Source: Planctomycetota bacterium (GTDB lineage: Bacteria; Planctomycetota; Phycisphaerae; Sedimentisphaerales; Anaerobacaceae). From it: DNA of 37,613 bases. Of the stretch, positions 1,434 to 21,318 are shown one piece after another. Positions within the stretch are counted from its first letter, which is position 1, and each line of letters begins with the position of its first letter. The position numbers and the translations under genes are program-made. The notes under the pieces were generated by a model. That model saw only the letters and a list, made by a program, of their open reading frames with translations, ran no database searches and was not told where the DNA came from. Location: the NCBI GenBank assembly GCA_012719085.1, contig JAAYBA010000274.1, positions 1 through 37,613 of the forward strand, read 5' to 3'.

Positions 1434-4400
1434 TTACCAGCGGTACTGGAGACCGCCGCTGATCAGATGCGCGGTGTCGTCGGCATTCAGCCGGGTATCG
1501 TAATCCACATAGAGCCGCGTGCTGCGATTCAGTTCGGCGCCGAGACCGAGGCCGAGAACGGCACTGTCCCTGTCGATGCTCTCATTGCGGATATTGAAGA
1601 CCACGGTCGGATCGCTGGCGAAGTACGTGTTCACATCGGACCGCGTATCGCCGAACTCGTGCAGCCAGCGGGCCCGGAACTGCACGGCCAGACGGCTGGT
1701 GGCGCTGTCGCGGAGCAGGTCCTTGCTCACTTTGGCGCCGAGCGAGCCGATGTAGGACTCGAAGCTCTGGCGTTTGAAGCCCAAGGCAGCGTCGCCACCG
1801 GACTCGCGGTAGTTGTCCAGACCGAGATAGGAGAGCTGGAAGCTGGCCAGCGGCTGGACCAGCCAGCCCCCGACGTGCCGCCAATCAAAACCGGTCTCGA
1901 AGTAACCGCTGACGGCATAGCCGCCGAACTCGCCTTCGAGCCGCTCGTCGGTCAGATCGACATAGCGCTGTGTGTCGTAGTCGAGATCGCTGTAGGTCAG
2001 GAGCGAATCGAGGTAGGCACGGCCGGTGTTGACGCTGCCGTAAAAGCCGAAGTGCATTGCCCGCAGATCGCTGTCGTCCCGTGAGCGGTCGTAATTGACA
2101 TGGGTATCGGCATAGCCGCCGGTCAGACCGATCAGCAGCGTTTCGGTGAACTGGTAATCGAGCCCGACACTGAGGCCGTAGGTCCTGTAGTCGTAGCCGG
2201 GGGCTTCGAGGCTGTGGTCCCGATTGCCGAAGAGGCCATACCCCTTGGCCCAGAATCCCCACGGGCTGTCGCTCAGATAAGGGCTGCCGTTGCCGACGGC
2301 GAAGCCGTAGCCGCCCATGTCGATATCATACGACATCCGGCTGCCCGCCGTCCCGTCGGGACCCGCCGAGCCGGACAACTGCGAACCGTTCCAACTGCCC
2401 GAGGCGACCACAGCACTGGGATTCCGCAGCCGGCTGGAAACGCTGCCGAGGAACCGTCCCGTCCCGGCCGCTGCAATCGGCGCCAGCGACGGCCGGGTCC
2501 GTCCGGCGAGCTGGTCGTAGTGGCCCAGCAGCTCTTCGTTCGTCTCGACCATCTGAAGATCCGCGGTGATCGTGTTGCCGCCTTCGTCGGCGATCTCCTG
2601 CAATCCGCCGGCAACCTGGCGCTGGTTGTACGTCCGCAGGAGGGTTGGGTCGTCAAACCGCATCGCGTCGATGTACAGCCACACGGCGTTGGGCTCGTAG
2701 TCCAGCCCGATTTCATTGAAGTAGAGGGTCAAGAGGGCCGTATCGAGGACGTCGAACTCACCGGTCACCGAATTGGCGTCGATGATCGCGTACTCCTGCG
2801 TCCCGACAACGGTGCCCACGGACAGGACTCGTACGGTGGAACCTTCGTCGATCGTCACGTCTCCGGTGGCTGCCAGTTGATCGGCCTCGGTGCCGCCGAT
2901 CTGGACCTCGAAGACGGAATTGGGCTCGAAGACCACGTCGCCCTGAACGGTCAGCGTCCCGATGCCGTCGTCGCCGGGGGCGATGGTGCCATAGTTGTGG
3001 ACGGTCGTCGGCACCGTCACTGTGACCGTACCGTCGCCGGTCAACGTACCGGTTTCCCAGACGATCACCTCGTCGGCGATCACCCGGCCGCCATCGTTGA
3101 CGGCCAGCACACCGGTGCCCATCGCCTGCGTGTCGTTGCCGCCAACGTACAGGTTCTCGTCAACGAGCCACCGCGAGGCATCACCGGTCACCGTCACCGT
3201 GCCGACGCTGTCCACGCTGTCGGCAGCGATCATACCACTAGTACTGGTCACCTCGCCACCGTCGCTGATAACCAGCGTTCCGTCGCCATCATAGCCGACA
3301 TAGAGGTCGCCTTCGACGTCCCAGAGCGAGTCGCTGCCCGTGACCGTAGCGGTGCCCGTTCCCGACCAGAACGCGCCGATCCAAGCCGCGGTGCTGTTCA
3401 TCTGCGCGCCGTCGGAGATCGTCAAGTCACCCTCGCCCCAGGCGCCGATATAGACATCGTTGGCATCCAAGACGGAGCCGGCGCCGGTGACCGTCGCCAC
3501 GCCGACACCAAGGTCCTGCGCCTGTCCAATGAAGACGGTGTTGGCATCCAGAACGCCCCCGCCCGAGATGAGCAAAGTCCCGGTGTTATACGCCCCGACA
3601 ACCACCTCATTGGCGTCCACAGCGCCCCCATTGGCGATCGTCAAGGAACCTTCGCCCACGTAGCCGACGGACAAGTCGCCGTCCACCATCCACGAAGAAT
3701 TCGGATCCGAGACCGTCACGGTTCCCGTACTGCCTTCCAGGTATCCGATGTAGCTGTTCTCGCTGAATACCGTACCACCGTCGAGGATATCCAGGGTCCC
3801 ATCGCCACTGTAGCCGACGTAGAGGGTCCAGCTACCGCCCGCCTGGAGGTAAGAGTCTTCCCCGGTAACCGTCACCGTACCGGTTCCTTCGGGCGTCTCC
3901 TCGATCTCTTCGTCCAGGATGCTCGCATCGAAGCCACCAATGTAGACTTCGCTCGCATAGACCTCACCGCCGTCGGAGATGGTCAGATCGCCGTCGCCGA
4001 AGGCGCCGACGGCCAACGCCTGGGAGATCGCCCACTGCGAGCCGGCGCCCGTGACCGTCGCGGTCCCGGTACTGCCCTCATCGGCGCCGACGGCCGCATA
4101 CTCGCTCGTTACGACACCACCTTCGTTGACATCGAGCGTGCCGGTGCCCGTGTAACCCACATGAAGAAAGTCATCGACGTCCAGTTCCGACCCTGTACCA
4201 GTGACGGTAACGACCCCAATGCCCTCAGGGATATCGTTCATATCCGGATCGCCCATCGCGTCGATATCGAAGCCTCCGATATAGACCTCGTTGGCGTCGA
4301 CGAGACCGCCGGCCGCAATCGTCATGGTACCCCGTCCGAACGCTCCGACGGTCAAACCTTCCGCGATCGTCCATTCGGAGTCAGTCCCGGTGATCGTAGC

Positions 4401-6662
4401 GGTGCCGGTACTGCCCGCGTCGGCGCCCACGGCACCGTACTCACTTGTGACCACACCGCCATCATTGACGTCGAGCGTGCCGGTGCCCGTGTAGCCCACG
4501 TAGAGGAACTCATCGACATCCAGACGCGATCCCGCTCCCGTCACGCTGATTGTTCCGGTGCCCAGGGGATCCCCGAAATCCGCCAACATGTCGGGGTCCA
4601 TGTCGTCCGGCATCTCGCCTCCGCCGATGCGAACCTCCCGGGTCGTCACCTGACCGCCGTTGGCCACCGTCACATCGCCCTGCCCCCAGAATCCGACGGA
4701 CAGTTCCTCCGTCGAAAGCAGGGAATCGGGGTCTTCCACCGTCACGGTGCCGACCGCATCCGGCCCACCGCCGACAACGACCATCTCGCTGTCGACCTGT
4801 CCGCCATCGTTCACGTCGAGAGTGCCGTCGCCGAAATAGCCGATGAAGAGGCTATCGTCGGCGGCAACCACCAGACGCGAGTCGGCCCCGGTCACGATTA
4901 CCGTGCCGGTGCCGTTGGGCAGCAGATCGGGATCGTAACCCTCATCGGTCATCAACTCCAGAGGCGCTCCGCCGACGTACACATCATAGGCTGAAACCTG
5001 GCCGCCTCCGGCGATGGTCAGATCGCCCTGTCCGTAGACACCCACGGTCAATTCGTCGTCGATCGTCCACGTCGAGGTCAAGCCTCGCACGGTGGCGGTA
5101 CCCACGGCATCGGGACCGACGCCGAGTTCGGCCCAGCCGCTGACCACCTGGCCGCCGTCGTTGACGTCCAGCGTACCGTCGCCCCAGAGGCCGACGGACA
5201 GACCGTCCGATTCCAGAACCGCCTCGGTGATCACCGTGATGGTCCCTGTCCCTTCCGGCAACACGGCGTCGGGGTCCAGGAAGTCGGCGAGCGTCTCGAA
5301 GCCCTCTGCGGGGATGTAGCCACCGATCTGCACGTCCCCAGCCGTCACCCGGCCGCGGTCGGACACCACCAGCGTGCCCTCACCGGCACCGCCGACGGTA
5401 AGCACATCGTTCACGTCCCATTGCGAGCCGTCGCCCGTGACCGTGACGGTCCCCACGCTGTCGGCACTGAAGCCGAGCATACCTGACTCGCTGGTGACCA
5501 CGCCGGTGTCGCTGATCTCCAGCGTGCCGGTGCCCGTATAGCCGACGTACAGGTCGCCGGAGAGGTCCCAGCGGGAATCGGCCCCCGTCACTTCCACCGT
5601 ACCGGTTCCATCGAGCGGATCATCGCCGAGGAACGGGCTCATATCGACATGCGGCGCCTCAAGGTCCACACCACCGATGTAGGCATCGGTGGTCGTGACC
5701 TGCCCGCCACTGGTTATGCTCAGGGTCCCGTCGCCCATGATTCCAACGGCCATCGCATCGGTGTTGGTCCACGTGCCACCGCTGCTGACCTCGACGGTGG
5801 CCACACTGTTGGGCCCGACGGCAATGCCGCTCTCCAGGCTGTTCAGAGTCCCACCGTCGGTGACGAACAGGTCGGCGTTGCCGAAGACACCGACACCGAA
5901 GCTCCCGGTGTTGTCCCACAGAGAATTCGCATCGCGGACGGTGCCCAAGCCATAGCTGCCGGCGTAGTAGCCAAGGACGCCATAGAAGCTGCTGACCTGG
6001 CCGCCGTTGGTGATCTGGATTTCGCCCTGCCCATCATACCCCACGGAGATCGACTCGTTCGCACTCAGGTGTGAGCCAGGGTCCGTGACGATAACATCGC
6101 CCATGCCGGTCGCTGCATCACCGACATAGACGTCCGACGCCTCGACGAGTCCACCGTCTTCGATGGTCAGCAGGCCGGTGCCCTCATAACCGACCTCCAG
6201 ATGCTCGTCGATCGTCCAGGCCGAACCGGCACCCGTCACCGTCGCTTCTCCGGTGCTGCCTGCGTCGTTGCCCAGGACACCATCGTAGCTGCTGACCTGG
6301 CCGCCGGAGTTGATCGTCAGGGTGCCGAATCCCTCAAACCCGACGACGAGCCATTCGGAGTTGATCCAGGAAGAGTCAGGTCCGGTAATCGTCGCGCTCC
6401 CTGTAACGCCGGCATAGCTGCCGATCACACCGTCTGCATTGGAGACCGAGCTTCCGCCGTCAACAGTCAACGCACCGTTGTCATCATTTCCCACATAGAG
6501 ATTGCCTTCGAGAATCCACGGGTCCGAGGCGTCGTAAGCCGGAAGCACCTGCCCGGCGGGAGTGATGGCGGCGCGGGCCTGATTCGCACCGAGCAGGCCC
6601 ATGCCTGCCAGCAGAAAAGCACAGGCAATGATTCGGATGCATCCCTTCGCTCGTTTGGTCAT
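1434..6662 (-). CDS. giant autotransporter (type V secretion) with about 22 beta-helix repeats
   Basis: This encodes a 1742-residue surface protein. Residues 1-31 form a signal peptide (MTKRAKGC, then a hydrophobic core ending in ARA). The passenger carries about 22 repeats of the pattern xVGxxGxGTLxIxxGGxV followed by GTxTVTGxxSxW, as in passenger-associated beta-helix repeats. About the last 270 residues read as an autotransporter beta-barrel, with alternating amphipathic strands ending in aromatic residues (final QYRW). A longer frame begins at 6815, but the ATG at 6662 is preceded by AAAGGA with good spacing and starts the signal peptide; an ATG at 6680 is also possible. Alternating passenger repeats bear acidic inserts. 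A hairpin follows the stop. Adhesion or surface-layer roles are typical of the family; the ligand is unknown. Confidence 0.9.
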   Translation of the reverse strand: MTKRAKGCIRIIACAFLLAGMGLLGANQARAAITPAGQVLPAYDASDPWILEGNLYVGNDDNGALTVDGGSSVSNADGVIGSYAGVTGSATITGPDSSWINSEWLVVGFEGFGTLTINSGGQVSSYDGVLGNDAGSTGEATVTGAGSAWTIDEHLEVGYEGTGLLTIEDGGLVEASDVYVGDAATGMGDVIVTDPGSHLSANESISVGYDGQGEIQITNGGQVSSFYGVLGYYAGSYGLGTVRDANSLWDNTGSFGVGVFGNADLFVTDGGTLNSLESGIAVGPNSVATVEVSSGGTWTNTDAMAVGIMGDGTLSITSGGQVTTTDAYIGGVDLEAPHVDMSPFLGDDPLDGTGTVEVTGADSRWDLSGDLYVGYTGTGTLEISDTGVVTSESGMLGFSADSVGTVTVTGDGSQWDVNDVLTVGGAGEGTLVVSDRGRVTAGDVQIGGYIPAEGFETLADFLDPDAVLPEGTGTITVITEAVLESDGLSVGLWGDGTLDVNDGGQVVSGWAELGVGPDAVGTATVRGLTSTWTIDDELTVGVYGQGDLTIAGGGQVSAYDVYVGGAPLELMTDEGYDPDLLPNGTGTVIVTGADSRLVVAADDSLFIGYFGDGTLDVNDGGQVDSEMVVVGGGPDAVGTVTVEDPDSLLSTEELSVGFWGQGDVTVANGGQVTTREVRIGGGEMPDDMDPDMLADFGDPLGTGTISVTGAGSRLDVDEFLYVGYTGTGTLDVNDGGVVTSEYGAVGADAGSTGTATITGTDSEWTIAEGLTVGAFGRGTMTIAAGGLVDANEVYIGGFDIDAMGDPDMNDIPEGIGVVTVTGTGSELDVDDFLHVGYTGTGTLDVNEGGVVTSEYAAVGADEGSTGTATVTGAGSQWAISQALAVGAFGDGDLTISDGGEVYASEVYIGGFDASILDEEIEETPEGTGTVTVTGEDSYLQAGGSWTLYVGYSGDGTLDILDGGTVFSENSYIGYLEGSTGTVTVSDPNSSWMVDGDLSVGYVGEGSLTIANGGAVDANEVVVGAYNTGTLLISGGGVLDANTVFIGQAQDLGVGVATVTGAGSVLDANDVYIGAWGEGDLTISDGAQMNSTAAWIGAFWSGTGTATVTGSDSLWDVEGDLYVGYDGDGTLVISDGGEVTSTSGMIAADSVDSVGTVTVTGDASRWLVDENLYVGGNDTQAMGTGVLAVNDGGRVIADEVIVWETGTLTGDGTVTVTVPTTVHNYGTIAPGDDGIGTLTVQGDVVFEPNSVFEVQIGGTEADQLAATGDVTIDEGSTVRVLSVGTVVGTQEYAIIDANSVTGEFDVLDTALLTLYFNEIGLDYEPNAVWLYIDAMRFDDPTLLRTYNQRQVAGGLQEIADEGGNTITADLQMVETNEELLGHYDQLAGRTRPSLAPIAAAGTGRFLGSVSSRLRNPSAVVASGSWNGSQLSGSAGPDGTAGSRMSYDIDMGGYGFAVGNGSPYLSDSPWGFWAKGYGLFGNRDHSLEAPGYDYRTYGLSVGLDYQFTETLLIGLTGGYADTHVNYDRSRDDSDLRAMHFGFYGSVNTGRAYLDSLLTYSDLDYDTQRYVDLTDERLEGEFGGYAVSGYFETGFDWRHVGGWLVQPLASFQLSYLGLDNYRESGGDAALGFKRQSFESYIGSLGAKVSKDLLRDSATSRLAVQFRARWLHEFGDTRSDVNTYFASDPTVVFNIRNESIDRDSAVLGLGLGAELNRSTRLYVDYDTRLNADDTAHLISGGLQYRW
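3886..5675 (-). repeat. higher-order repeat in the autotransporter passenger: six acidic inserts about 345 bp apart
   Basis: Six insertions rich in Asp, Glu, Met and Pro interrupt every second beta-helix repeat at the same place, after an IGG or VGG and before GTGT or a close variant. Approximate positions are 5605-5675, 5250-5325, 4910-4975, 4558-4622, 4216-4275 and 3886-3940. Examples are EMPDDMDPDMLADF and DIDAMGDPDMNDIPEG. Spacing is close to 115 codons, so the unit is one plain repeat plus one insert-bearing repeat. The insert sequences differ while position and character are conserved. Confidence 0.75.
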
Positions 6663-7060
6663 GACTGAATCCTTTCTCATGAACTCCGACCGCTCGTCAT
6701 ACAACAGACTGTCCCGCAGGACACAGCGATTCTCAAAACCCGATGATCGACCGGACGGCAGTGATTCTGGCGCCCCGTCATAGACTGCCACGATGACACC
6801 TCGAAACAACAACAATTCCCTCTGCTGGAGCCGAAGAGAGAGTATCTCCCAGCGACCATCAGACTCGTGGACTCATCACTATTCTACTTCGGCGCGTCGT
6901 CCGGTTTTTCTCCAATATATTCCACAGGAAATCGTAGCGCATAAGCATAGAAATAGCATAGCTTTGCGCTCTCAATCATGGTCGGAGAGTGAGCCCTCCG
7001 CGATCGTCTGATAAAACCTCGTGCATCACCACAGGCGCCCCCGACATCGATCCACTGTCG
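6663..7060. other. intergenic region upstream of the autotransporter
   Basis: Roughly 400 bases separate the reductase stop from the autotransporter start. The part near 6900-6990 is clearly richer in A and T, as expected of a promoter region for the minus-strand autotransporter. I could not find a well-spaced -35/-10 pair. The in-frame N-terminal extension (6663-6815) does not look like a signal peptide. Confidence 0.5.
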
Positions 7061-7969
7061 CTATGGCACGTCGCGCCCGGTCGAGGCACACCAGATCTCG
7101 AACCACTCATCATGCGGGACGGTCAGTTCGAGGGCCTCGACGGCCTTGTGAATGCGGGAGAGCCGTCCGGTGCCGATGACGGGAACCAGTCGAGCCGGGT
7201 GCACGAGCAACCAGGCCAGGGCCACCTGATCCATCGAGGCCCCACCCAGGCGGCGACCGATCCGGCCCAGGACGTCGCGAAGACGTCGGGCCCGATCGGA
7301 GTCCTCGTGAAACAGCCGGCCGCCGCCCATCGGCGACCAGGCCATCGGCCGAAGGTCCAGCCGCTGACAAAGATCGAGGCTCCCGTCGCTATGGGCGTCG
7401 AGGTGCATCACGGAGTACTCGATCTGGTTCGTCACCAGCGGCACGTCGAGCTTCGAGGCCAGCATCTCGAATTGCGACGGCAGGAAGTTCGAGACCCCGA
7501 AGTGGCGCACTTTGCCTGTACTCTTCAGTTGCAGGAAGGCTTCGTTGACCTGCGCCGGGTCCATTAGCGGATCGGGCCTGTGAATCAACAGCAGGTCGAT
7601 GTAATCGACGCGAAGGTTCTTCAGCGAATTCTCCGCCGAGGCGACGATGTGGGCGGCGGTGGTGTCGTAGCACTTGATGGCGTGGCCCGGGCGATTGCGC
7701 GAGACCAGTTTGATGCCACACTTGGTCACCAACTGAATCTGCGATCGGTCGATCCCGGTGTCGACCAGCGCCCTGCCGAAGAGGGATTCGCAGGTGTAGT
7801 CGCCGTAGATGTCGGCGTGGTCGAATGTCGTGATGCCCACTTCGAGGCAGCCGGTGATCAGCTCTCGAACCTCTGCCTCACCCTTGCTCCAGTCCGCCAG
7901 CCGCCAGAGGCCGTGGACGATTCGGGAACAGCGAGGCCCATTCTCACACAGATCGATCTGAGGAACCAT
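7061..7969 (-). CDS. aldo/keto reductase (YdhF-like)
   Basis: A 302-residue NADPH-dependent oxidoreductase of the aldo/keto reductase superfamily, close in pattern to E. coli YdhF. The catalytic tetrad can be read as Asp50 and Tyr55 (FDHADIYG), Lys83 (VTKCG) and His130 (LLIHRPDP). The GVSNF motif of the barrel and a C-terminal PVIGTGR cofactor-binding segment are also present. Length is normal. The ATG at 7969 has only a weak upstream GGAG. The gene lies downstream of parA on the same strand with a 142-base gap that contains a promoter candidate, so it may be transcribed alone. The physiological substrate cannot be told from sequence. Confidence 0.92.
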   Translation of the reverse strand: MVPQIDLCENGPRCSRIVHGLWRLADWSKGEAEVRELITGCLEVGITTFDHADIYGDYTCESLFGRALVDTGIDRSQIQLVTKCGIKLVSRNRPGHAIKCYDTTAAHIVASAENSLKNLRVDYIDLLLIHRPDPLMDPAQVNEAFLQLKSTGKVRHFGVSNFLPSQFEMLASKLDVPLVTNQIEYSVMHLDAHSDGSLDLCQRLDLRPMAWSPMGGGRLFHEDSDRARRLRDVLGRIGRRLGGASMDQVALAWLLVHPARLVPVIGTGRLSRIHKAVEALELTVPHDEWFEIWCASTGRDVP

Positions 7970-10567: not shown

Positions 10568-13500
10568 TCAGTCGGCCGCGACGCTGGCCTGCGCGGTGCC
10601 GCCGTACGCGCCCATGTTGATCCGCGAGTTTCCGACAACAGCGCCGTCGAGTGCCACAGGTTCGTCCAGAATGGAGACGCCCGGGTCCCCTGCATCAATG
10701 CATGGACTGGTCCCTGCATCCGACCGCCAGAGGTCGGCAACGTCATCCCAACGGGCCCCCTGGCTCTGGAGATGGTAATCACCAGCCGTCCACACAGAGT
10801 CCGACCACTGCCCGGAAGAGACGAAGAGCGGGTCGGCGTCGATATTGCCCTCGCCGGGCCAGCCCCCCTGCACGTTGGAGTAGGTCAACTCCGCGCGATT
10901 GTCACCGATCTGAACGCCATCGCTGTCGTTGAAGTAGATGATCGAGTTGGTTACGATCGCCCCGAGAGTGTTCAGCCCGGCCGCGAGGTTCTCCACAACC
11001 GTGCAATTGGTCAGCCACGGCCGTCCGCCCACGACGCCCACGCCGTGATTACCCGCTACGAGACAATTCAGGAACGTCGGCATACTGTGACGAACCGTGC
11101 GCGATCCCGTTGGAATCCACATCTCCACCCCGATGCCGAGGTTGCCGATGATGCGGGACGCGACGACGCTGGGTCGGCTCTGGTTGATAATGAACATCCC
11201 CGTCTCATTGCCTGCGATAGTGCATCGCCTGATCGTAGGTGTGGAGCCGGAGACGAGAACACCGGCCATGCCTCCGGAGACGGTCACGCCATCCAGAACG
11301 CTGTCGGCCTGTTCACCCTCCGCGAACGTGACGACATTGGCATGCCCCTCGATAACGGTAGCGGCCACCACGGCCGGATCGTCCGGGTTCGCAGAGCGGA
11401 CCGTCGCCGCCTTGCCGGCGAAGTCGATCGACTCGCGATGGACACCCTGAGGCAGCACGATCTCGTCGCCCGCCTGGGCCGCGGCGATTGCGTGCTGCAC
11501 GTAGTCGAATCGCTCGCCCGTCGTGGCGTTCTGCACGGCCCCGTCGAGAATGGAGTAACCGAAGGCCAGCCTCAGGCCCTGGATCGGCCCATAGGCGCCG
11601 CCCAGCCACACAAGCGAGGCGCCCTGCAATGAGGGCGACAAGCCATACGGCGCGGCGGGCAGATCGACGTTCATCACGCCGTAGTTGGCCGTGATGCACG
11701 CGAGTCGAATCTGACCGCCGGACTCTTCTCCATCGAGGTACGCAATGAGACAGCCGTCCACGATCGGTTGCCGTTGTCCCTTTCTGGCCTTGGCGATCAC
11801 GAACACCTCAACGTGTTCGGGATCGGCGACGTCGGCGCCGTAGATGTCGCCTTCATCGTCGCGTTCATCGGTCCAGACGACATACCGGCCGGAGACCGAC
11901 GGATCGCGCTGCCGCCCTGGGGCATCGCAGACCGTGAACACCCGGATGTTGTCCAGGTCCGAAAGATCGGCGGCGTAGATATCGCCATCCCCTTCCCAGA
12001 CCGCGAGATTGTCGCAGATGTCGACGACGTCATCGTAGTCGTTGGCCGGATTCTGAATCGGCAGCGGGTCTCTGCGACCGGCGTTCGTGGCCACGGTGAA
12101 GTAGACGGGATTCTGCAGGTCGCCGATATCGGCGCCGCAGATATCGTACGGCATGTTGTTCCATTGGCCTGCGATGTTCTTGTCAATCTCCGCGTGCCGA
12201 ACCCAGACGACCTTGCGGCCTGAGATGGCCGGGTGGCTGTAGGACTCGTAATCCGTGTGCGTTCGCAGGGCGATCTGCTCTTCCGTGGCAAGGTGGCGAA
12301 CGAAGATACTCGTGCACATCCGCGTCAGAGCGCCGCTGGCGCGGTCGCCGCCAGCCCAGACGACCAGGTTGCCATCTACCTTCGGCTGCGTGCTGAATCC
12401 ACCGGCCGAGAACGTCTCGGTCAGTTGCGTGGCGAAATCCGTGTAGGCGATCTGCCAGGCGAGGTTCCCAGGGTCCGAGACCGCCACGACCTTCGTCCCG
12501 GAGACGTCGGTATACCGCGGGGTCTGGTTGCCGATCGGCTCGATTGTCAACGCCCGCAGGTTGGTTGTCGTCCTGACCGCCACGATGCGCACCTGACTCG
12601 GCTCGCTGTCGCCGAACCCGTCGCTGACGATCAACTCGAAGGTGTAGATCCCGCCCGGCTCGGCATCGAAAGCCGGCGTGGCCGTTTCCGGGTTCTGCAA
12701 AACGACGCTCGGTCCGCTCCGTTGGGTCCACTGGTAGCTCAGCCGCCCGACCGGATCGGGATCGTGGGAGCCGCTGCCGTCCAGCGTGATCTGTCCGGGG
12801 GCCGGCCAGACGCGGTCCTGGCCGGCATTGGCCGTGGGAAGGTGGTTGGGCCCGACGTAGACCAGGACCTCGTCCGGCCCGCTGGCGTACCGACTGTCAG
12901 CAACCACCAACTGGAACACGTAACGGCCCTCGGCCGGCGCGACAAATGAGGGATACGCCGAATCAGCATTCTCGATGACAACATCCTGCCCGGAGACCTG
13001 TGTCCACTGGTACGTCTGGGTATCGAAGGAATCGTAGAAGAAACTGTCTGCGCCGTCGAGCGTGACCGTCTGACCCACCTCGAGGACGTGCACGTCGCCG
13101 CCCGCCGAGGCCACCGGCTTGACGTAGCCGACGTACTCATCGGCGCCAATGTCGATCCGGCTGGCATAGACGCGCTGCTCGCCGTCGATGTCGGTCTGGC
13201 CGACTGGGGGGACAAAATCCGGGTCGCCTGCATTGATGCAGGGCGAGTCCAGCGTCAGGTGGAAGTTCCTGCTCGTCGAGGCCAGGAACAGCGGATTGTC
13301 GCTGACATTCCCGTTCACCCCGGTCTGGTCTCCGTCTCCATCGTACACGACCGAGTAGGTCTGCGGGTCCAGGTATCCGTAGTTGCCGGGCACGTTGCCC
13401 CAGACGTTGTTGAACGCAAGCGAGGCATATTCAAGATCGCCTTCCCAGAACATGCCCCCCCCTGATCCGGCCTCGCAGAGGAGGTTGTTGAAGACGCGGG

Positions 13501-14299
13501 CGGATCCATATTCCGGCGCGGCGACGAGATACAGGTTGCCGCCCATGCCCTCGCCGATCCCGATGCCCAGCGTCGATCCGAACTCGCAGTCGTTGCGCAC
13601 AAAGGTATTGTTGTAGACCTGCCCGGCAAATGTCACCAGACCGCCGCCGAGGTAGGCGGAGTTCTCAAAAATCATGTTGTTGTGAATCGTGGGCTCGCCG
13701 AAATAGCCGATGATCCCGGCGCCGACATAGGCGCTGTTGTTGCGAATGGTGTTGTATGTGATCATGGGACTGCACTGCCAGCAGCCGATCCCTCCACCAA
13801 AGCAGAGATCGACCTGCATCTGACTCTCGGAGATGCGGAAGAGGCCCTCGTTGCGGACGATCACGTTCTTCGTGATGGTCGGCGAGCTGCGGTTGCAGTA
13901 GATTCCGCCGCCCATGTAAAGCCTCTCGGTATCGTTGCCGCCAAGCTCAGGGTGGAGCGTGCCGCCGCCGCCGGTGATCGTGAAGCCGGCCAGCACCGCC
14001 TGGGAGGTCTGCCCTCCCGCAAACGTGACCACCGAGCCGTTGGCATCGCCTTTGAGAACGGTGTAGCTGACAATCCTGGGATCGTCGGGGTCCGTGCTGG
14101 TCACTGTGATATTCTTGCGTCGGAAATCGATGGTCTGGAAGTAGACCCCCGGCGCCACCAGCACGGTGTCGCCGTCGACAGCGGCGTCGATTCCCGCCTG
14201 AAGGGTCGGATAGTCGCTCGGAACCCTTCGTACCTCCGCCCAGCCGGCCCCTGCACAGACCACCACCACAAGGACCGCCAATAGACTCGTTCTTTTCAT
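10568..14299 (-). CDS. secreted beta-helix / PKD-like / propeller protein
   Basis: A 1243-residue exported protein. Residues 1-21 are a signal peptide (MKRTSLLAVL core, GWA at the cleavage site). A right-handed parallel beta-helix follows (about 25-390), with Asn-rich turns such as NNMIFENSAYLGGG and the common closing motif SPCINAGDPD. Two PKD-like domains come next (about 395-580, each with YQWTQ.SG and TANAGQD-type motifs). A TolB-like propeller region (about 585-915) carries repeated VVWTDERDDEGDIYGAD-type blades. A second beta-helix (about 915-1185) ends with SPCIDAGDPG and NMGAYGG. Such helices often bind or cleave polysaccharides, but no catalytic triad is evident. Start: ATG 14299 follows AAAGGTGAGG; the frame upstream to 14431 is not signal-like. 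Confidence 0.88.
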   Translation of the reverse strand: MKRTSLLAVLVVVVCAGAGWAEVRRVPSDYPTLQAGIDAAVDGDTVLVAPGVYFQTIDFRRKNITVTSTDPDDPRIVSYTVLKGDANGSVVTFAGGQTSQAVLAGFTITGGGGTLHPELGGNDTERLYMGGGIYCNRSSPTITKNVIVRNEGLFRISESQMQVDLCFGGGIGCWQCSPMITYNTIRNNSAYVGAGIIGYFGEPTIHNNMIFENSAYLGGGLVTFAGQVYNNTFVRNDCEFGSTLGIGIGEGMGGNLYLVAAPEYGSARVFNNLLCEAGSGGGMFWEGDLEYASLAFNNVWGNVPGNYGYLDPQTYSVVYDGDGDQTGVNGNVSDNPLFLASTSRNFHLTLDSPCINAGDPDFVPPVGQTDIDGEQRVYASRIDIGADEYVGYVKPVASAGGDVHVLEVGQTVTLDGADSFFYDSFDTQTYQWTQVSGQDVVIENADSAYPSFVAPAEGRYVFQLVVADSRYASGPDEVLVYVGPNHLPTANAGQDRVWPAPGQITLDGSGSHDPDPVGRLSYQWTQRSGPSVVLQNPETATPAFDAEPGGIYTFELIVSDGFGDSEPSQVRIVAVRTTTNLRALTIEPIGNQTPRYTDVSGTKVVAVSDPGNLAWQIAYTDFATQLTETFSAGGFSTQPKVDGNLVVWAGGDRASGALTRMCTSIFVRHLATEEQIALRTHTDYESYSHPAISGRKVVWVRHAEIDKNIAGQWNNMPYDICGADIGDLQNPVYFTVATNAGRRDPLPIQNPANDYDDVVDICDNLAVWEGDGDIYAADLSDLDNIRVFTVCDAPGRQRDPSVSGRYVVWTDERDDEGDIYGADVADPEHVEVFVIAKARKGQRQPIVDGCLIAYLDGEESGGQIRLACITANYGVMNVDLPAAPYGLSPSLQGASLVWLGGAYGPIQGLRLAFGYSILDGAVQNATTGERFDYVQHAIAAAQAGDEIVLPQGVHRESIDFAGKAATVRSANPDDPAVVAATVIEGHANVVTFAEGEQADSVLDGVTVSGGMAGVLVSGSTPTIRRCTIAGNETGMFIINQSRPSVVASRIIGNLGIGVEMWIPTGSRTVRHSMPTFLNCLVAGNHGVGVVGGRPWLTNCTVVENLAAGLNTLGAIVTNSIIYFNDSDGVQIGDNRAELTYSNVQGGWPGEGNIDADPLFVSSGQWSDSVWTAGDYHLQSQGARWDDVADLWRSDAGTSPCIDAGDPGVSILDEPVALDGAVVGNSRINMGAYGGTAQASVAAD

Positions 14300-14639
14300 G
14301 TCCTCACCTTTCTCAGAGACCCGCACGCAGTGAACAGGTATGCCGGGAGATCGGCCTGCCTCCAGGTACAGGCCAGATACAAAAGTATACCCGAATTTGG
14401 TCGTTATTTCAAGGCATTTCACGGTCTGCACGCCATCGGCGCTGTGGATCGCGTGGCTCCTGCCTTCCCCTATATAGACGCGCCGGACGGGCCGGCATTG
14501 CGCGAAAAATGGCCGATTCAGCCGAAACGAGCGTCGTCACCATACGCCGGGCAATCTACATCGGGCGTGTTACCGGGTTGTTACGGATGTGCCACTTTCG
14601 TGTGATTCTCGGGGTCTCTGGGGTCTTCACGCCGGCAAA
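14300..14639. other. intergenic region upstream of the beta-helix gene
   Basis: About 340 bases between two minus-strand genes. It contains a near-consensus promoter at 14384-14412. I found no clear terminator for the upstream glycosylase gene and no further gene. Confidence 0.55.
14384..14412 (-). promoter_or_regulatory. near-consensus sigma-70 promoter of the beta-helix gene
   Basis: TTGAAA (14412-14407), a 17-base spacer and TATACT (14389-14384) on the minus strand match five of six positions in each box. Transcription would begin near 14377, giving a leader of about 78 bases. This is one of the best promoter matches in the window. Confidence 0.7.
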
Positions 14640-15526: not shown

Positions 15527-17716
15527 TTACAGACCGGCCAGTTCGGCGATCTCTTCGGCCGACAACGCCCTGTCGTAGAGGCGAACCTCGTCCATCAGGC
15601 CCGGCATCTCACGCTGGAGATCGCCGCCGTTGTTCCAGGCGCCCAGCGCCGCGCCACCGAGAATCAGGTTCTCCAGCGGCGCTTCGAGGATGCGGATGTC
15701 CTCCAGTTGGCCGTTCAGATACAGGGCCACTTCGGTCTCGGAGATCGTCAGGACCATGTGACTCCACGCCGCCGGAAGGACCGGCGTGACACCCTGAAGG
15801 TCCTGATCAACGCCGTTGATCCCCGCGTTGACCATCCCGTAGCTGAGCTTGAAGTGCACAGCGCCGTCGGTCCAGTCGTTCGTGTTGATGCCGCCGGCGA
15901 ACTGCAATCCGCTCAGATCCGCCGTGGGGAACACCCACATCGAGATGCTGCACGCGCCGAAGACCGTCTCGTCGCCGCCGATGCGGGGGACATCCACCGC
16001 ATCGTCGTCGCCGTCGAGAACCAGAACGCCGTCCAGGATCATGGCGTCACCGAGAAGGGTCCCGTCATTGCCGTTGCCCGTGGCATCGCTGGCATCGGCA
16101 TCGAAGGGATAGTGGGCCAGGAGACCCTCGGCCAGCGGATCGGCCGGCTCTTCGGGCTCTTCCGGCTCGATGAGCATGTACGCCACCGCGTTGAGGAACA
16201 TCTGCGCGCCGTCTTCATACAGGTCATACATGCCCGCCGTCTCGGAGTTGATGCCATCCGCCTCGCGCGCGCCGGTGAGGAACACCAGCCGCGGACCGGC
16301 CAGCACATCCGTTCCGGCTCCGCCGTCATGCGTCAACATGGCGCCGGCCGGCCACTCGGCGATCATCATCGCGCCGACAGGCCCCGCGCCCTCGGACGCA
16401 GCGGAAACCGTGGCCAGAACCACGCCTTCGTCATCCGGCGCGTCGGTCACAACTGAAATACCCCGCGCCAGTGTCCCGTCGGCATAGGTCGCAACACCGG
16501 CAAACGGATTGTCCATCGTGCCGTCGGTCAACGCGATCCCCGCGAAGATGGGGTGCTCCGGATCGGTGACGGTCAGGCTGATGTCCCCGGTGGTGTCCGG
16601 GATCGTGTTGCCGGTGGCAAAGCCCATGCGGTTCTGCCGAATCACGTAGCCACCCAGGATCATCATGGGCGCCGAGACATTGTTCCATGTCGTCGCCGCG
16701 TCATTCTGAAAACTGCCGCTGGCAACCGAACGGCCGACGATCACCAGATCCGCCGCGTTGACCACGTTCACGTCGGGCGTACCCGTCTGCACGTATCGCA
16801 TCACGTCGTAGCCGGCGCCCTTGAGCAAATCGGTGTACGCCTTGTCGGCCGCCTCAGTGAAGCCGACCCCGGCCGCGCCGCCCGAAGGGGCGTCATCGGC
16901 CGCATGGAGGGAAACCCACACGACCAGCGACCTGCCGAGCATATAGGAGATGGCGTTGCGCAGCAGTTGCTCGCCATCGGCCGTCAGGTTGAACGCGCCC
17001 TGCGGGGTCGCGTCGACCTCCTGCGTTCCGGCCGAGAACATCATACGCTGGCCGCCGGCGATCTGACCGGCGCCGTCGTAGAACTCCACGCCGGCGTCCC
17101 ACACGGCGATCCAGGCCGCATCGAGATCCGCCCCTTTGGCGATCAACTGACCGTTGCCCATATCGAGGGTACCGATCAGCGAAGTCTGACCGGTGCCCGT
17201 CGTCCCGTCCACCGCCTGCACAAGCACGGCCGGCGAATTCGGATCGTTCGGGTCGGCGGCCGCGAGCGGAACGAACCGGAACACGGAACTCGCCGCGTCC
17301 ACCGCTTCCATCGCCGCCCCGACCGGATTGACGACGTCTGTGCTGTTGACCCATTGCCACCGGCTGCTCCGGACCAGATAGGCGCTCATCTGAATCAGCG
17401 GCGTCGTAACCGAATTCCATTGCGTCACCTTCTCGCCGCCGGCGTAGTCGCCGCTGTTCGTCGCCCGGCTCATGATGATCAGATCGGCGGCATTCAGGGC
17501 CTCGATCTTGTTCGGATCCAGATCGACCCAGTTGCCCCGCTGCACATCGACGGTGTGCCCCTCGGCCACGAGCCAGTCTTCCAGGGCCTGATCGTCCTGG
17601 ACGCCATCTCCATCGGTGTCGTATATCTGGGAGACGAGAATGATGTCCGCCGCCTGTACGGCGGGGACCAGACAGAAGCCAAGTACCGCTAACATGAGAA
17701 CGATTCTTCGTGACAT
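15527..17716 (-). CDS. secreted protein: duplicated ThuA-like domain plus LamG
   Basis: A 729-residue exported protein starting at ATG 17716 after a strong AAGGAGGA. Residues 1-22 are the signal peptide ([14 protein letters not shown], cut after QA). Residues 23-258 and about 265-515 look like two copies of one alpha/beta domain, probably glutamine amidotransferase- or ThuA-like. Each holds an AADLIIMSR or AADLVIVGR strand, a W-N-S/N-V-(T/S)-(T/A)-P segment, [10 protein letters not shown] or [10 protein letters not shown], and a closing helix with AISYML or AVAYML. An acidic linker ([11 protein letters not shown]) leads to a LamG/concanavalin-like domain (about 531-729) ending [15 protein letters not shown]. 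No catalytic cysteine is apparent. It may bind glycans at the surface; the function is unproven. Confidence 0.85.
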
Positions 17717-18155
17717 GCGATAGTCCTCCTTCGAATTCGACATCAGTAACGACATGGTCGCCGAACTCTTCGGTCGTCGGCCTGACGCGACGAATACGTG
17801 GTTCGACGATACGATTTCGCCCGGCTACGATCCGGACGATGTACTTCAGACCAAGGCCCGAAGCACTCGGCAACGGCTCACCGCGATCCGCTCGAAGCCG
17901 GTCGCCTCGACACAGATCCTGCATGTGCGTGCGCGGCCTCCACAAGACACACGGATTGCTGCTGCCCGGAATAGAATTGACCTCCTTCTTTGAACGACGC
18001 ACTGCGATGACGGGAATGACCGTGAGGCACGCCACCTCAACACGCATAGACTGTCACCCACCTCAGAACCGGACTTTCAAGCCTTTCCGCCGCATCGGCC
18101 GTTCACACCCAACTCTCGGCCCCTGAGAATGAGAATCGCAGGATACTCTGACTTC

Positions 18156-18348: not shown

Positions 18349-21318
18349 TCAGCGGTCTCCGGCCAAGTAGCGGACCTCGCCGGCCGACAGAGCGCGGTTG
18401 TAGATACGGAACTCGTCGAGCGAGCCGGCAAAATAGGGATCGGCGGTGTACTGGGACCGGGCAAGCCAGTTCTGCGTCGTCTCGCCCATGTCCGCCGGAA
18501 GTGTCCCTGTCTCGACGCTGTCGACGGCCTGGCCATCAACATACATCGTCAGCATCATGCTGTCGGCATCGATCACCACCGCAATGTGGTGCCAGCCCTC
18601 CGTCAGACCCGCCGGCGCCGTCACGATCGACTCGCCTGCGCCGGCGCTGGTCGTAATAGCGAACCGCGGGCTGTTCGTCGCCCCGTTGTTCGGGCTCAGG
18701 AACATGTACACGGTCGCGCCGGTCCCGAAGTCGAAGGCCCGCTGCCAGGTATTGCCCGTCCCGTCGAACAGGATTCGCGTCGAGAACGTCGCGCTGCGCA
18801 GCGAGGCCATCAGCGAACCGATCGGCAACTCGACATAATCGGCAAACCCGTCGAACTGGATCGCCTGGCCGAAGCCGGCCGGGGCCTGAGCATACGACGG
18901 ATCGTTGAACGGCGTGCCGTCATAGCCGTTGCCCGAGCTGTCCTGGACGTTGCCGTCCATCATGTAGTAGGCCGCCAGACCCGCCGTGCCCGGATCGAGC
19001 GGAAGGATCGGCTCCGGCGCCTCGCGATACAGGCGGATGTCATCGACCAGCAGCAGACCCGCGCCGCTGCCGTCGACGCCGATGCTGAACGTCCGAACGT
19101 TCGCCATGTTCGTCCCGATCGACGCCAGATCGATGTTCCACTGCTTCCAGACCGGGCTGGTCAGCACGCCCGGGTAGGTCACCTTCGTGTCGTTGACCGA
19201 GACGTAGAGCTGGCCGGCCCCGTTGTCGGCGGCACCGCGGAAGAACAGCACCAGCGTCGTCGCACCGCCGGCCGTCCAATCCTGAGCGTCCATCGTGAAG
19301 TCGGCCTGCGAATTGCCCTCGTAGAACAGCGGCATCGCCTGACGTCCGCTGTAGACGGCGGCCTGCTCGGCGAACGGCGAACTCATATAGCCGACCGTCG
19401 AGCCGGTGTTGTTGACCCAGCCGTCAATCCAGGTGTCGAAGATGGCCTCGCCGGCGTCGATGTCGTCGGTATAGCTCTCGAAGTTGTCGACGACGGTGAA
19501 TTCCTGCGTCGAGAAGCTCCAGACCGATCCCGTCCAGAGGCCGACGGCCTCGACGTCGTTGACCTCATCGACCTTCCAATAGTAGGTCGCATCGAGCGTC
19601 AGGCCGGCGGGATCGTAGCGGTTCTCGCCGACCGTGGCAACGGGCGCTGCGTCGTCGGCCACCGCCGCTTGCTCCGTGCCCAGATACACCTGGTGCGAGC
19701 CTGCTTCGCGACCGGCACGCCAGTTCAGCTCGGTCCCGATCTCCACATCCGTCGCGCCGTCCGCCGGCTCGGGCTGGCGGGCCTGAACGGGGATATGCAG
19801 GAAGCGGACCTCGCTGAGGCCGTACTGCCCCAGTGAACCGAAGCCGCTGTTGATCGTCAGACGAACGGCCTTGGCGGCCAGGCCCTGGAAATCGATCAGC
19901 GTATTGGCGGCATAGCCGGTCTTGGCGGTGCCTCGACCAAACTCGAAGTCGCCCAGCGTCGCCCATTCGAGGCCATCGGCGGAGTATTCCACCGTCACCT
20001 CCTTGAGTCCGAATCCGAGCATCAGCTCAAACATGACGTTGTAGTTCCACACGTGCATCTCGTGGACCTTGTAGACGCCGTCGAACTCGAACTGAATCCA
20101 GACCGGACCGTCGGCATCGACCAGCTCACCGAGCCACATGTCCGTCGGGTTGATCGAGTGCTTGCCGTCGGCGTCGAGGCCGGAGCCGTTGACGGTGTTC
20201 TCCGGGCCGGTGCCTTCCTCGACGTTGGTGGCGTTGGTCGTGGCCACGACGTTGGCGATCGGATAGACGAACGGCTCGGTGGTGAAGCTCCACAGGTCGC
20301 CCCGGACGATCGTGTTGTCCGACGCGATCTCATCGACACGCCAGTAGTAGGACTGCTCGAAGTCCAGACGCGCCGGCGGCGTGTACGTCGTGCCCGCCTG
20401 CGCCTGGCTGGCCAGCACGCCCATCGGATTGCCCCGTTCGGCCGCCTCGATATCCTCGGCCGAGCCGCCGAAGTAGACATCGTGCGTCGCCGCCGATTCG
20501 CCCGCACTCCAGGCGAGAGCCGCGTCGCGCGGCACGTCGGTCGCCTCGTCCGCCGGCGACGGATCGTAGGCGACGTTGGGATTGAACCCGTCCGGGCCCA
20601 TGCGATGCAGCTTGTCGATCTCCGCGCGTGTCAGAGCGCCGGTCCACAGCCGGACCTCGTTGAAGCTCGCGTTGGCGGTGTTGTCTTCCCATTGCGAGCG
20701 GCCCAGCCAGACGTTGGTGTCGTTCAGCTCCGACAGACGGTTGGTCGACTGGAACGATCCCTTGGCATCGCCGATGCTGTCGCTGTCGGCCGGCGCGGTG
20801 TACCACGTGACCAGCCCCTCGTCGAACACGCAAACGATGTGGTATTGCACACCCAGCGTGTACGGGGCGTTGGTGTTGTCCAGCGTGTTGCTGCCGTTCG
20901 AGCCGAGCCATTCGACGCGATCGCCGGTCAACGTGGTTGCACTGGTCCAGCTCATGAACACGTTCTCCGCCGTGCTCGTGCCGAAATCGAAGATGCGCGA
21001 CCAGTTCTGCACCGAAATCTGGGTGGCCCACGCCTCGAACGTGACGAAATCGCCCAGGCCGCTGACGATGCCGTCGGGCAGGTCGACGTAATCGCTGGTG
21101 CCCTTGGCGCCGCCGGTGAGGGTGACTTCGGCATCGGACAGGATGGCGTCGTTGGCGCCCAGGTCCACAATCACGGCGTCCTGCCCTCCGATCGAGTCTC
21201 TCAGGTCCCCGTTGAAGCTCCAGCGATGCGCCAATTCGGCCGCCCAGCCCTCGGTCGCCACGCCCAGTCCGCCTATGGCGGCCAGGGCCAGCATCAAGAC
21301 CACTTGTTTTCTACACAT
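18349..21318 (-). CDS. secreted multidomain protein: LamG, discoidin-like, LamG
   Basis: A 989-residue exported protein with a strong AAGGAGGA before ATG 21318 and a signal peptide ending near residue 27 (WAAELAHRWSF). A LamG-type jelly-roll occupies about 28-245. A fibronectin-like module follows (SPADEATDVPRDAALAWS). A discoidin-like F5/8-type-C module lies at about 352-510 (VWIQFEFDGVYKVHEMHVWNYN region, then VRLTINSGFG). A second fibronectin-like module has PADGATDVEIGTELNW. A galactose-binding-like segment lies around 611-780, and a second LamG at about 790-989 ends DEFRIYNRALSAGEV, nearly the same ending as the neighbouring LamG protein. These are carbohydrate-binding folds and no catalytic domain is seen. 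It probably acts at the cell surface on glycans; the ligand is unknown. Confidence 0.87.
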   Translation of the reverse strand: MCRKQVVLMLALAAIGGLGVATEGWAAELAHRWSFNGDLRDSIGGQDAVIVDLGANDAILSDAEVTLTGGAKGTSDYVDLPDGIVSGLGDFVTFEAWATQISVQNWSRIFDFGTSTAENVFMSWTSATTLTGDRVEWLGSNGSNTLDNTNAPYTLGVQYHIVCVFDEGLVTWYTAPADSDSIGDAKGSFQSTNRLSELNDTNVWLGRSQWEDNTANASFNEVRLWTGALTRAEIDKLHRMGPDGFNPNVAYDPSPADEATDVPRDAALAWSAGESAATHDVYFGGSAEDIEAAERGNPMGVLASQAQAGTTYTPPARLDFEQSYYWRVDEIASDNTIVRGDLWSFTTEPFVYPIANVVATTNATNVEEGTGPENTVNGSGLDADGKHSINPTDMWLGELVDADGPVWIQFEFDGVYKVHEMHVWNYNVMFELMLGFGLKEVTVEYSADGLEWATLGDFEFGRGTAKTGYAANTLIDFQGLAAKAVRLTINSGFGSLGQYGLSEVRFLHIPVQARQPEPADGATDVEIGTELNWRAGREAGSHQVYLGTEQAAVADDAAPVATVGENRYDPAGLTLDATYYWKVDEVNDVEAVGLWTGSVWSFSTQEFTVVDNFESYTDDIDAGEAIFDTWIDGWVNNTGSTVGYMSSPFAEQAAVYSGRQAMPLFYEGNSQADFTMDAQDWTAGGATTLVLFFRGAADNGAGQLYVSVNDTKVTYPGVLTSPVWKQWNIDLASIGTNMANVRTFSIGVDGSGAGLLLVDDIRLYREAPEPILPLDPGTAGLAAYYMMDGNVQDSSGNGYDGTPFNDPSYAQAPAGFGQAIQFDGFADYVELPIGSLMASLRSATFSTRILFDGTGNTWQRAFDFGTGATVYMFLSPNNGATNSPRFAITTSAGAGESIVTAPAGLTEGWHHIAVVIDADSMMLTMYVDGQAVDSVETGTLPADMGETTQNWLARSQYTADPYFAGSLDEFRIYNRALSAGEVRYLAGDR

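Follow-up and report, generated by a model that had tools for sequence, protein, structure and literature searches.

Loops that protrude from a β-helix are known from Ag43 and UpaB. Ag43 has two, both acidic and 11–14 residues long, which lie between rungs 2–3 and 7–8 and are without an assigned function (PMC8993888). UpaB binds fibronectin through a ladder of rungs that includes an acidic patch, and loops protruding between its turns 2–6 form a groove (PMC6488583). The window analysed here, a 37,613-nucleotide stretch of DNA from a Planctomycetota bacterium, contains an autotransporter gene whose product resembles both. As in Ag43, the passenger is a predicted β-helix (VIA Z of about 15) with protruding acidic loops; unlike in Ag43, there are six loops rather than two, and up to 13 in relatives, recurring with a period of about four coils in a helix of TIGR04393 repeats. 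Where Ag43-like self-association is concerned, the likeness is one of fold only. With UpaB, the protein shares loops protruding between turns and an acidic or polar ladder along the helix, which UpaB uses for binding; however, UpaB has its loops on successive turns, where they form a groove, whereas those described here are spaced four coils apart as part of a recurring module. Other TIGR04393 proteins share the repeat sequence and its length of about 49–50 residues (21 copies here), but the members examined outside this clade have corner loops of about 7–9 residues and no acidic inserts. The locus is best read as a lineage-specific elaboration, within a known kind of protein, on the theme of acidic loops that stand out from the helix, as Ag43 and UpaB have them.

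The gene lies at positions 1437–6680 of the window on the minus strand and encodes 1748 residues from an ATG at 6680, with a second possible ATG at 6662. It comprises a putative signal region, 21–22 β-helix repeats, a linker and a β-barrel. The barrel, an autotransporter β-domain (PF03797; 1470–2255, minus strand, residues 1521–1773 of the open reading frame, coordinates approximate), is matched over its full length (1–255 of 255) at E = 7.7e-59, the C-terminal domain that defines a type Va autotransporter. At the N-terminus, a hydrophobic stretch ending in QARA can be read from the sequence. Display of the passenger at the cell surface is inferred. The passenger (3153–6500, minus strand) consists of TIGR04393 (T5SS/PEP-CTERM-associated) repeats of about 50 residues, each forming two coils. 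The NCBIfam model scored 782.6 bits over the whole protein, with 21 stretches at or above the curated cut-off of 23 bits, and this is the sole protein in the assembly with the repeat; a search for papers naming TIGR04393 found none in the literature collection searched. The 1116 passenger residues encoded by 3153–6500 (minus strand) include no lysine or cysteine, 11 arginines and 172 aspartates and glutamates, and the passengers of relatives are also nearly lysine-free. The closest named record, 80% identical, belongs to a Phycisphaerales metagenome-assembled genome (LVBB01000016.1); the text of one anammox-granule paper makes no mention of LVBB01000016.

Several other features surround the gene. 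Antisense to it runs a 964-residue open frame (2100–4994, plus strand), probably an effect of repetitive, G+C-rich coding sequence. An aldo/keto reductase gene (7064–7969) adjoins it, and on its upstream side the same strand encodes three more large and apparently surface-located or secreted proteins (10571–14431, 15530–17755 and 18352–21318, minus strand), whose domains are PKD, β-helix/NosD and Laminin_G_3 (ConA-like lectin). Further giant autotransporters are encoded in the same genome (L078, G000:C414) and in a congener (L079, G004:C14), in frames of 1879 and 2545 residues respectively; both have a related barrel and quite different repetitive passengers.

An earlier note on this sequence had described six insertions rich in Asp, Glu, Met and Pro at the same place in alternate repeats, about 345 bp apart, unlike in sequence yet constant in position and acidity. 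All of this is borne out. From the N-terminus onwards, and all on the minus strand, the inserts are insert 1, VDLEAPHVDMSPFLGDDPLD (5610–5669, residues 338–357); insert 2, of a type we call alpha, YIPAEGFETLADFLDPDAVLPE (5253–5318, residues 455–476); insert 3, beta, APLELMTDEGYDPDLLPN (4914–4967, residues 572–589); insert 4, gamma, GEMPDDMDPDMLADFGDPL (4563–4619, residues 688–706); insert 5, FDIDAMGDPDMNDIPE (4224–4271, residues 804–819); and insert 6, FDASILDEEIEETPE (3888–3932, residues 917–931), with positions and composition taken from a curated list. They are 15–22 residues long and start 117, 117, 116, 116 and 113 residues apart (351–339 bp). Each replaces the short loop at the corner between 'xIGG' and 'GTGTVTV' in repeats 6, 8, 10, 12, 14 and 16, whereas repeats 7, 9, 11, 13, 15 and 17 have the ordinary short loop. 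Aspartate and glutamate make up 33.6% of the inserts (37 of 110 residues) against 13.4% elsewhere in the passenger (Fisher p = 4e-7), and proline 13.6% against 0.7% (p = 3e-11); methionine is enriched about 7-fold (p = 4e-4), and none of the 110 residues is lysine or arginine. Pairwise comparison of the six finds a likeness between inserts 5 and 6 alone (z of 3.7–4.0).

To place the inserts in three dimensions, residues 310–1002 were modelled with AlphaFold2, with one orthologue as the alignment (pLDDT 86.8, pTM 0.87). The predicted fold is a regular β-helix of three strands and about 25 residues per coil, so that a 50-residue repeat corresponds to two coils. In the model, each insert separates the last of the three strands of one coil from the opening strand of the coil after it, and all six lie at an equivalent corner, with one loop to every four coils; a second, shorter model of 299 residues (pLDDT 86.6) agrees. 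Loops in one corner and four coils apart are expected to line up along one edge of the helix, and the earlier proposal of a row of acidic loops along one face is thus supported by prediction. β-Helices rise by 4.8 Å per coil; at that rise, neighbouring loops would be about 19 Å apart. The inserts themselves have a pLDDT of about 50–65, compared with 86.8 for the whole model; the alpha and gamma types are predicted to contain short helices. Foldseek returned no match in the PDB at E ≤ 0.001, and a sequence search of solved structures gave nothing relevant; VIA realignment of the Foldseek candidates reached Z scores of up to 17.5 and aligned the model with the β-helices of Ag43, TibA, EtpA, pertactin and tapirin (Z 14–17.5). 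The model and these matches give the protein the β-helix passenger, as predicted, of a type Va autotransporter, but a fold shared with them shows no function.

The even spacing has a simple origin in the repeats. With the inserts removed, insert-bearing (A) repeats are 47% identical to one another and insert-free (B) repeats 54%, against 40% between A and B; of the 462 possible ways of splitting the repeats, compared outside the inserts, the true A/B division scores best. Two repeat classes imply that the unit duplicated was a two-repeat module, A plus B, and its duplication explains the spacing with no need for selection on it. In keeping with such a unit, the orthologue L027 (G004) has exactly one module fewer: A14 and B15 (4017–4355, minus strand) are missing, and the single remaining A repeat resembles a mixture of A14 and A16, the repeats that carry the one mutually similar pair, inserts 5 and 6. 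Relatives do not keep strictly to every second repeat, and have inserts also in neighbouring repeats (67–69 residues apart) or at steps of 120–161 residues. The suggestion that the spacing itself had been selected is therefore not needed. Relatives in three genera keep the inserts. Judged from sequence, it is the inserts and their order that are constrained. C-terminal to the last insert, repeats 17–21 (3153–3824, minus strand) are 49–57% identical between orthologues, against 94–99% for the barrel, pointing to rapid turnover in this region of the passenger.

Two rival explanations give the loops no binding role. The first, which we consider rather improbable, is that an ancestral loop was copied along with the two-repeat module and has no role, its spacing being a footprint of duplication. 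The two repeat classes and the module-exact deletion would fit this, as would the existence in the same family of sister autotransporters with the same repeats and without the acidic loops (L106, L035 and L070). The second is the main rival to a binding role, although we hold it unlikely: acidic, proline-rich loops that differ from one another would limit misregister or aggregation during secretion, and recombination between repeats. Consistent with such an aid, the inserts are mutually unlike except for 5 and 6 (z 3.7–4.0), the sole module loss observed, in L027, falls between the modules of precisely those two, and the passenger is lysine-free and acidic. However, one deletion is a single event, and sister autotransporters built from TIGR04393 repeats have coils just as regular and manage without such loops.

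Conservation between orthologues bears on both. Inserts 1–4 are 80–100% identical among our protein, L027 and L029, with ω of 0.045–0.079 against 0.23–0.27 in the neighbouring scaffold; for inserts 5 and 6, the comparison with L027 is confounded by the module loss. Fisher tests of nonsynonymous and synonymous changes in inserts versus scaffold gave p of 0.02–0.10, variable sites amounted to 9 of 79 in inserts and 83 of 387 in scaffold (p = 0.04), and a circular-shift control gave 63/466. At the sequence level, it is firm that the inserts are no less conserved than the scaffold; that they are more conserved is suggested, with weak significance. The identity of 80–100% and ω of, in round figures, 0.05–0.08 speak against loops inherited as mere decoration, and conservation of particular sequences exceeds what would be needed if the loops had only to differ, as an aid to folding would ask.

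Giant autotransporters with such inserts were found in four genomes of two other genera of the family (G012, G378, G438 and G439; the G012 gene is split over two contigs, which were compared apart), with the largest number, 13, in a 2265-residue open frame of G378. Clustering of the inserts yielded distinct types, and our inserts 2, 3 and 4 (alpha, beta and gamma) recur in this fixed order in three genera, with 9 such adjacencies against 2.7 expected (p = 1.4e-4, G439 left out). The block that carries them, units 8–12 (4506–5402, minus strand), is co-linear with all three inserts in the three genera; its 299 residues align between genera without large gaps at 44–50% identity. The block is patchily distributed, in 7 of the family's 89 genomes. 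Samples of the class and the phylum contained no block with inserts outside the family, only partial, insert-free matches, and no match was found among the viral contigs searched. Persistence of types and order across genera again argues against a loop without a role, as does the net charge, which is negative, from −2 to −11, in all 61 catalogued inserts. The extreme is an insert of L105 (G438:C296), YATDFFFDEDEEEEEEDGTFGYGFGPN, with a net charge of −11. A DP[D/N/E] core occurs in 23 of 50 catalogued inserts against 4.7 expected from shuffled sequences. Shared as it is across types, the core suggests that the loops have a single origin, and to that extent favours their copying as passive decoration.

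Acidity of this kind also invites a metal-binding explanation, in which rows of aspartate and glutamate bind calcium and so stiffen the helix or bridge it to acidic polymers. The inserts are 34% Asp and Glu with no Lys or Arg, and DPD is present in four of the six loops. The canonical calcium motif DxDxDG, in contrast, is absent from all 50 catalogued inserts; we accordingly rejected a canonical calcium loop, and its absence makes metal binding less likely. The shorter pattern DxD shows no clear excess (21 against 16.4 expected, p = 0.08), and the predicted loops are not confidently structured. We regard a metal-binding row as quite doubtful.

The explanation that we favour, with little better than even confidence as a whole, is a module-duplicated autotransporter whose row of loops serves as an adhesive binding edge. 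On this view, a Phycisphaerales bacterium would display a β-helix autotransporter on its cell surface, with a passenger that grew by duplication of a module of 113–117 residues and four coils, made of an A repeat with an acidic loop and a B repeat without one; in relatives, multi-module blocks would have been copied too. At one and the same corner of the coil, each A repeat would present a 15–22-residue loop, acidic, proline-rich and partly helical, and together the loops would stand out like the teeth of a comb along a single edge of the helix. By analogy, this comb is probably the binding edge of an adhesin, directed at a matrix polymer, a surface protein of another cell or the protein itself. 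That the loops bind a ligand or a surface polymer, as the earlier note had suggested they might, is plausible given UpaB and Ag43. A more elaborate variant, to which we give only a small chance, holds that a clade of giant planctomycete autotransporters uses a modular coded comb, in which the loop types are ordered and not interchangeable, come one to every four coils and are copied as multi-module blocks, with each type recognising a different partner or a different position on a multivalent ligand.

A hierarchy of growth, from coil to repeat, to two-repeat module, to multi-module block, sets the spacing of the loops without selection on spacing. The family offers a natural series of 6 to 13 acidic loops, conserved in type and order, which makes the role of the loops directly testable.
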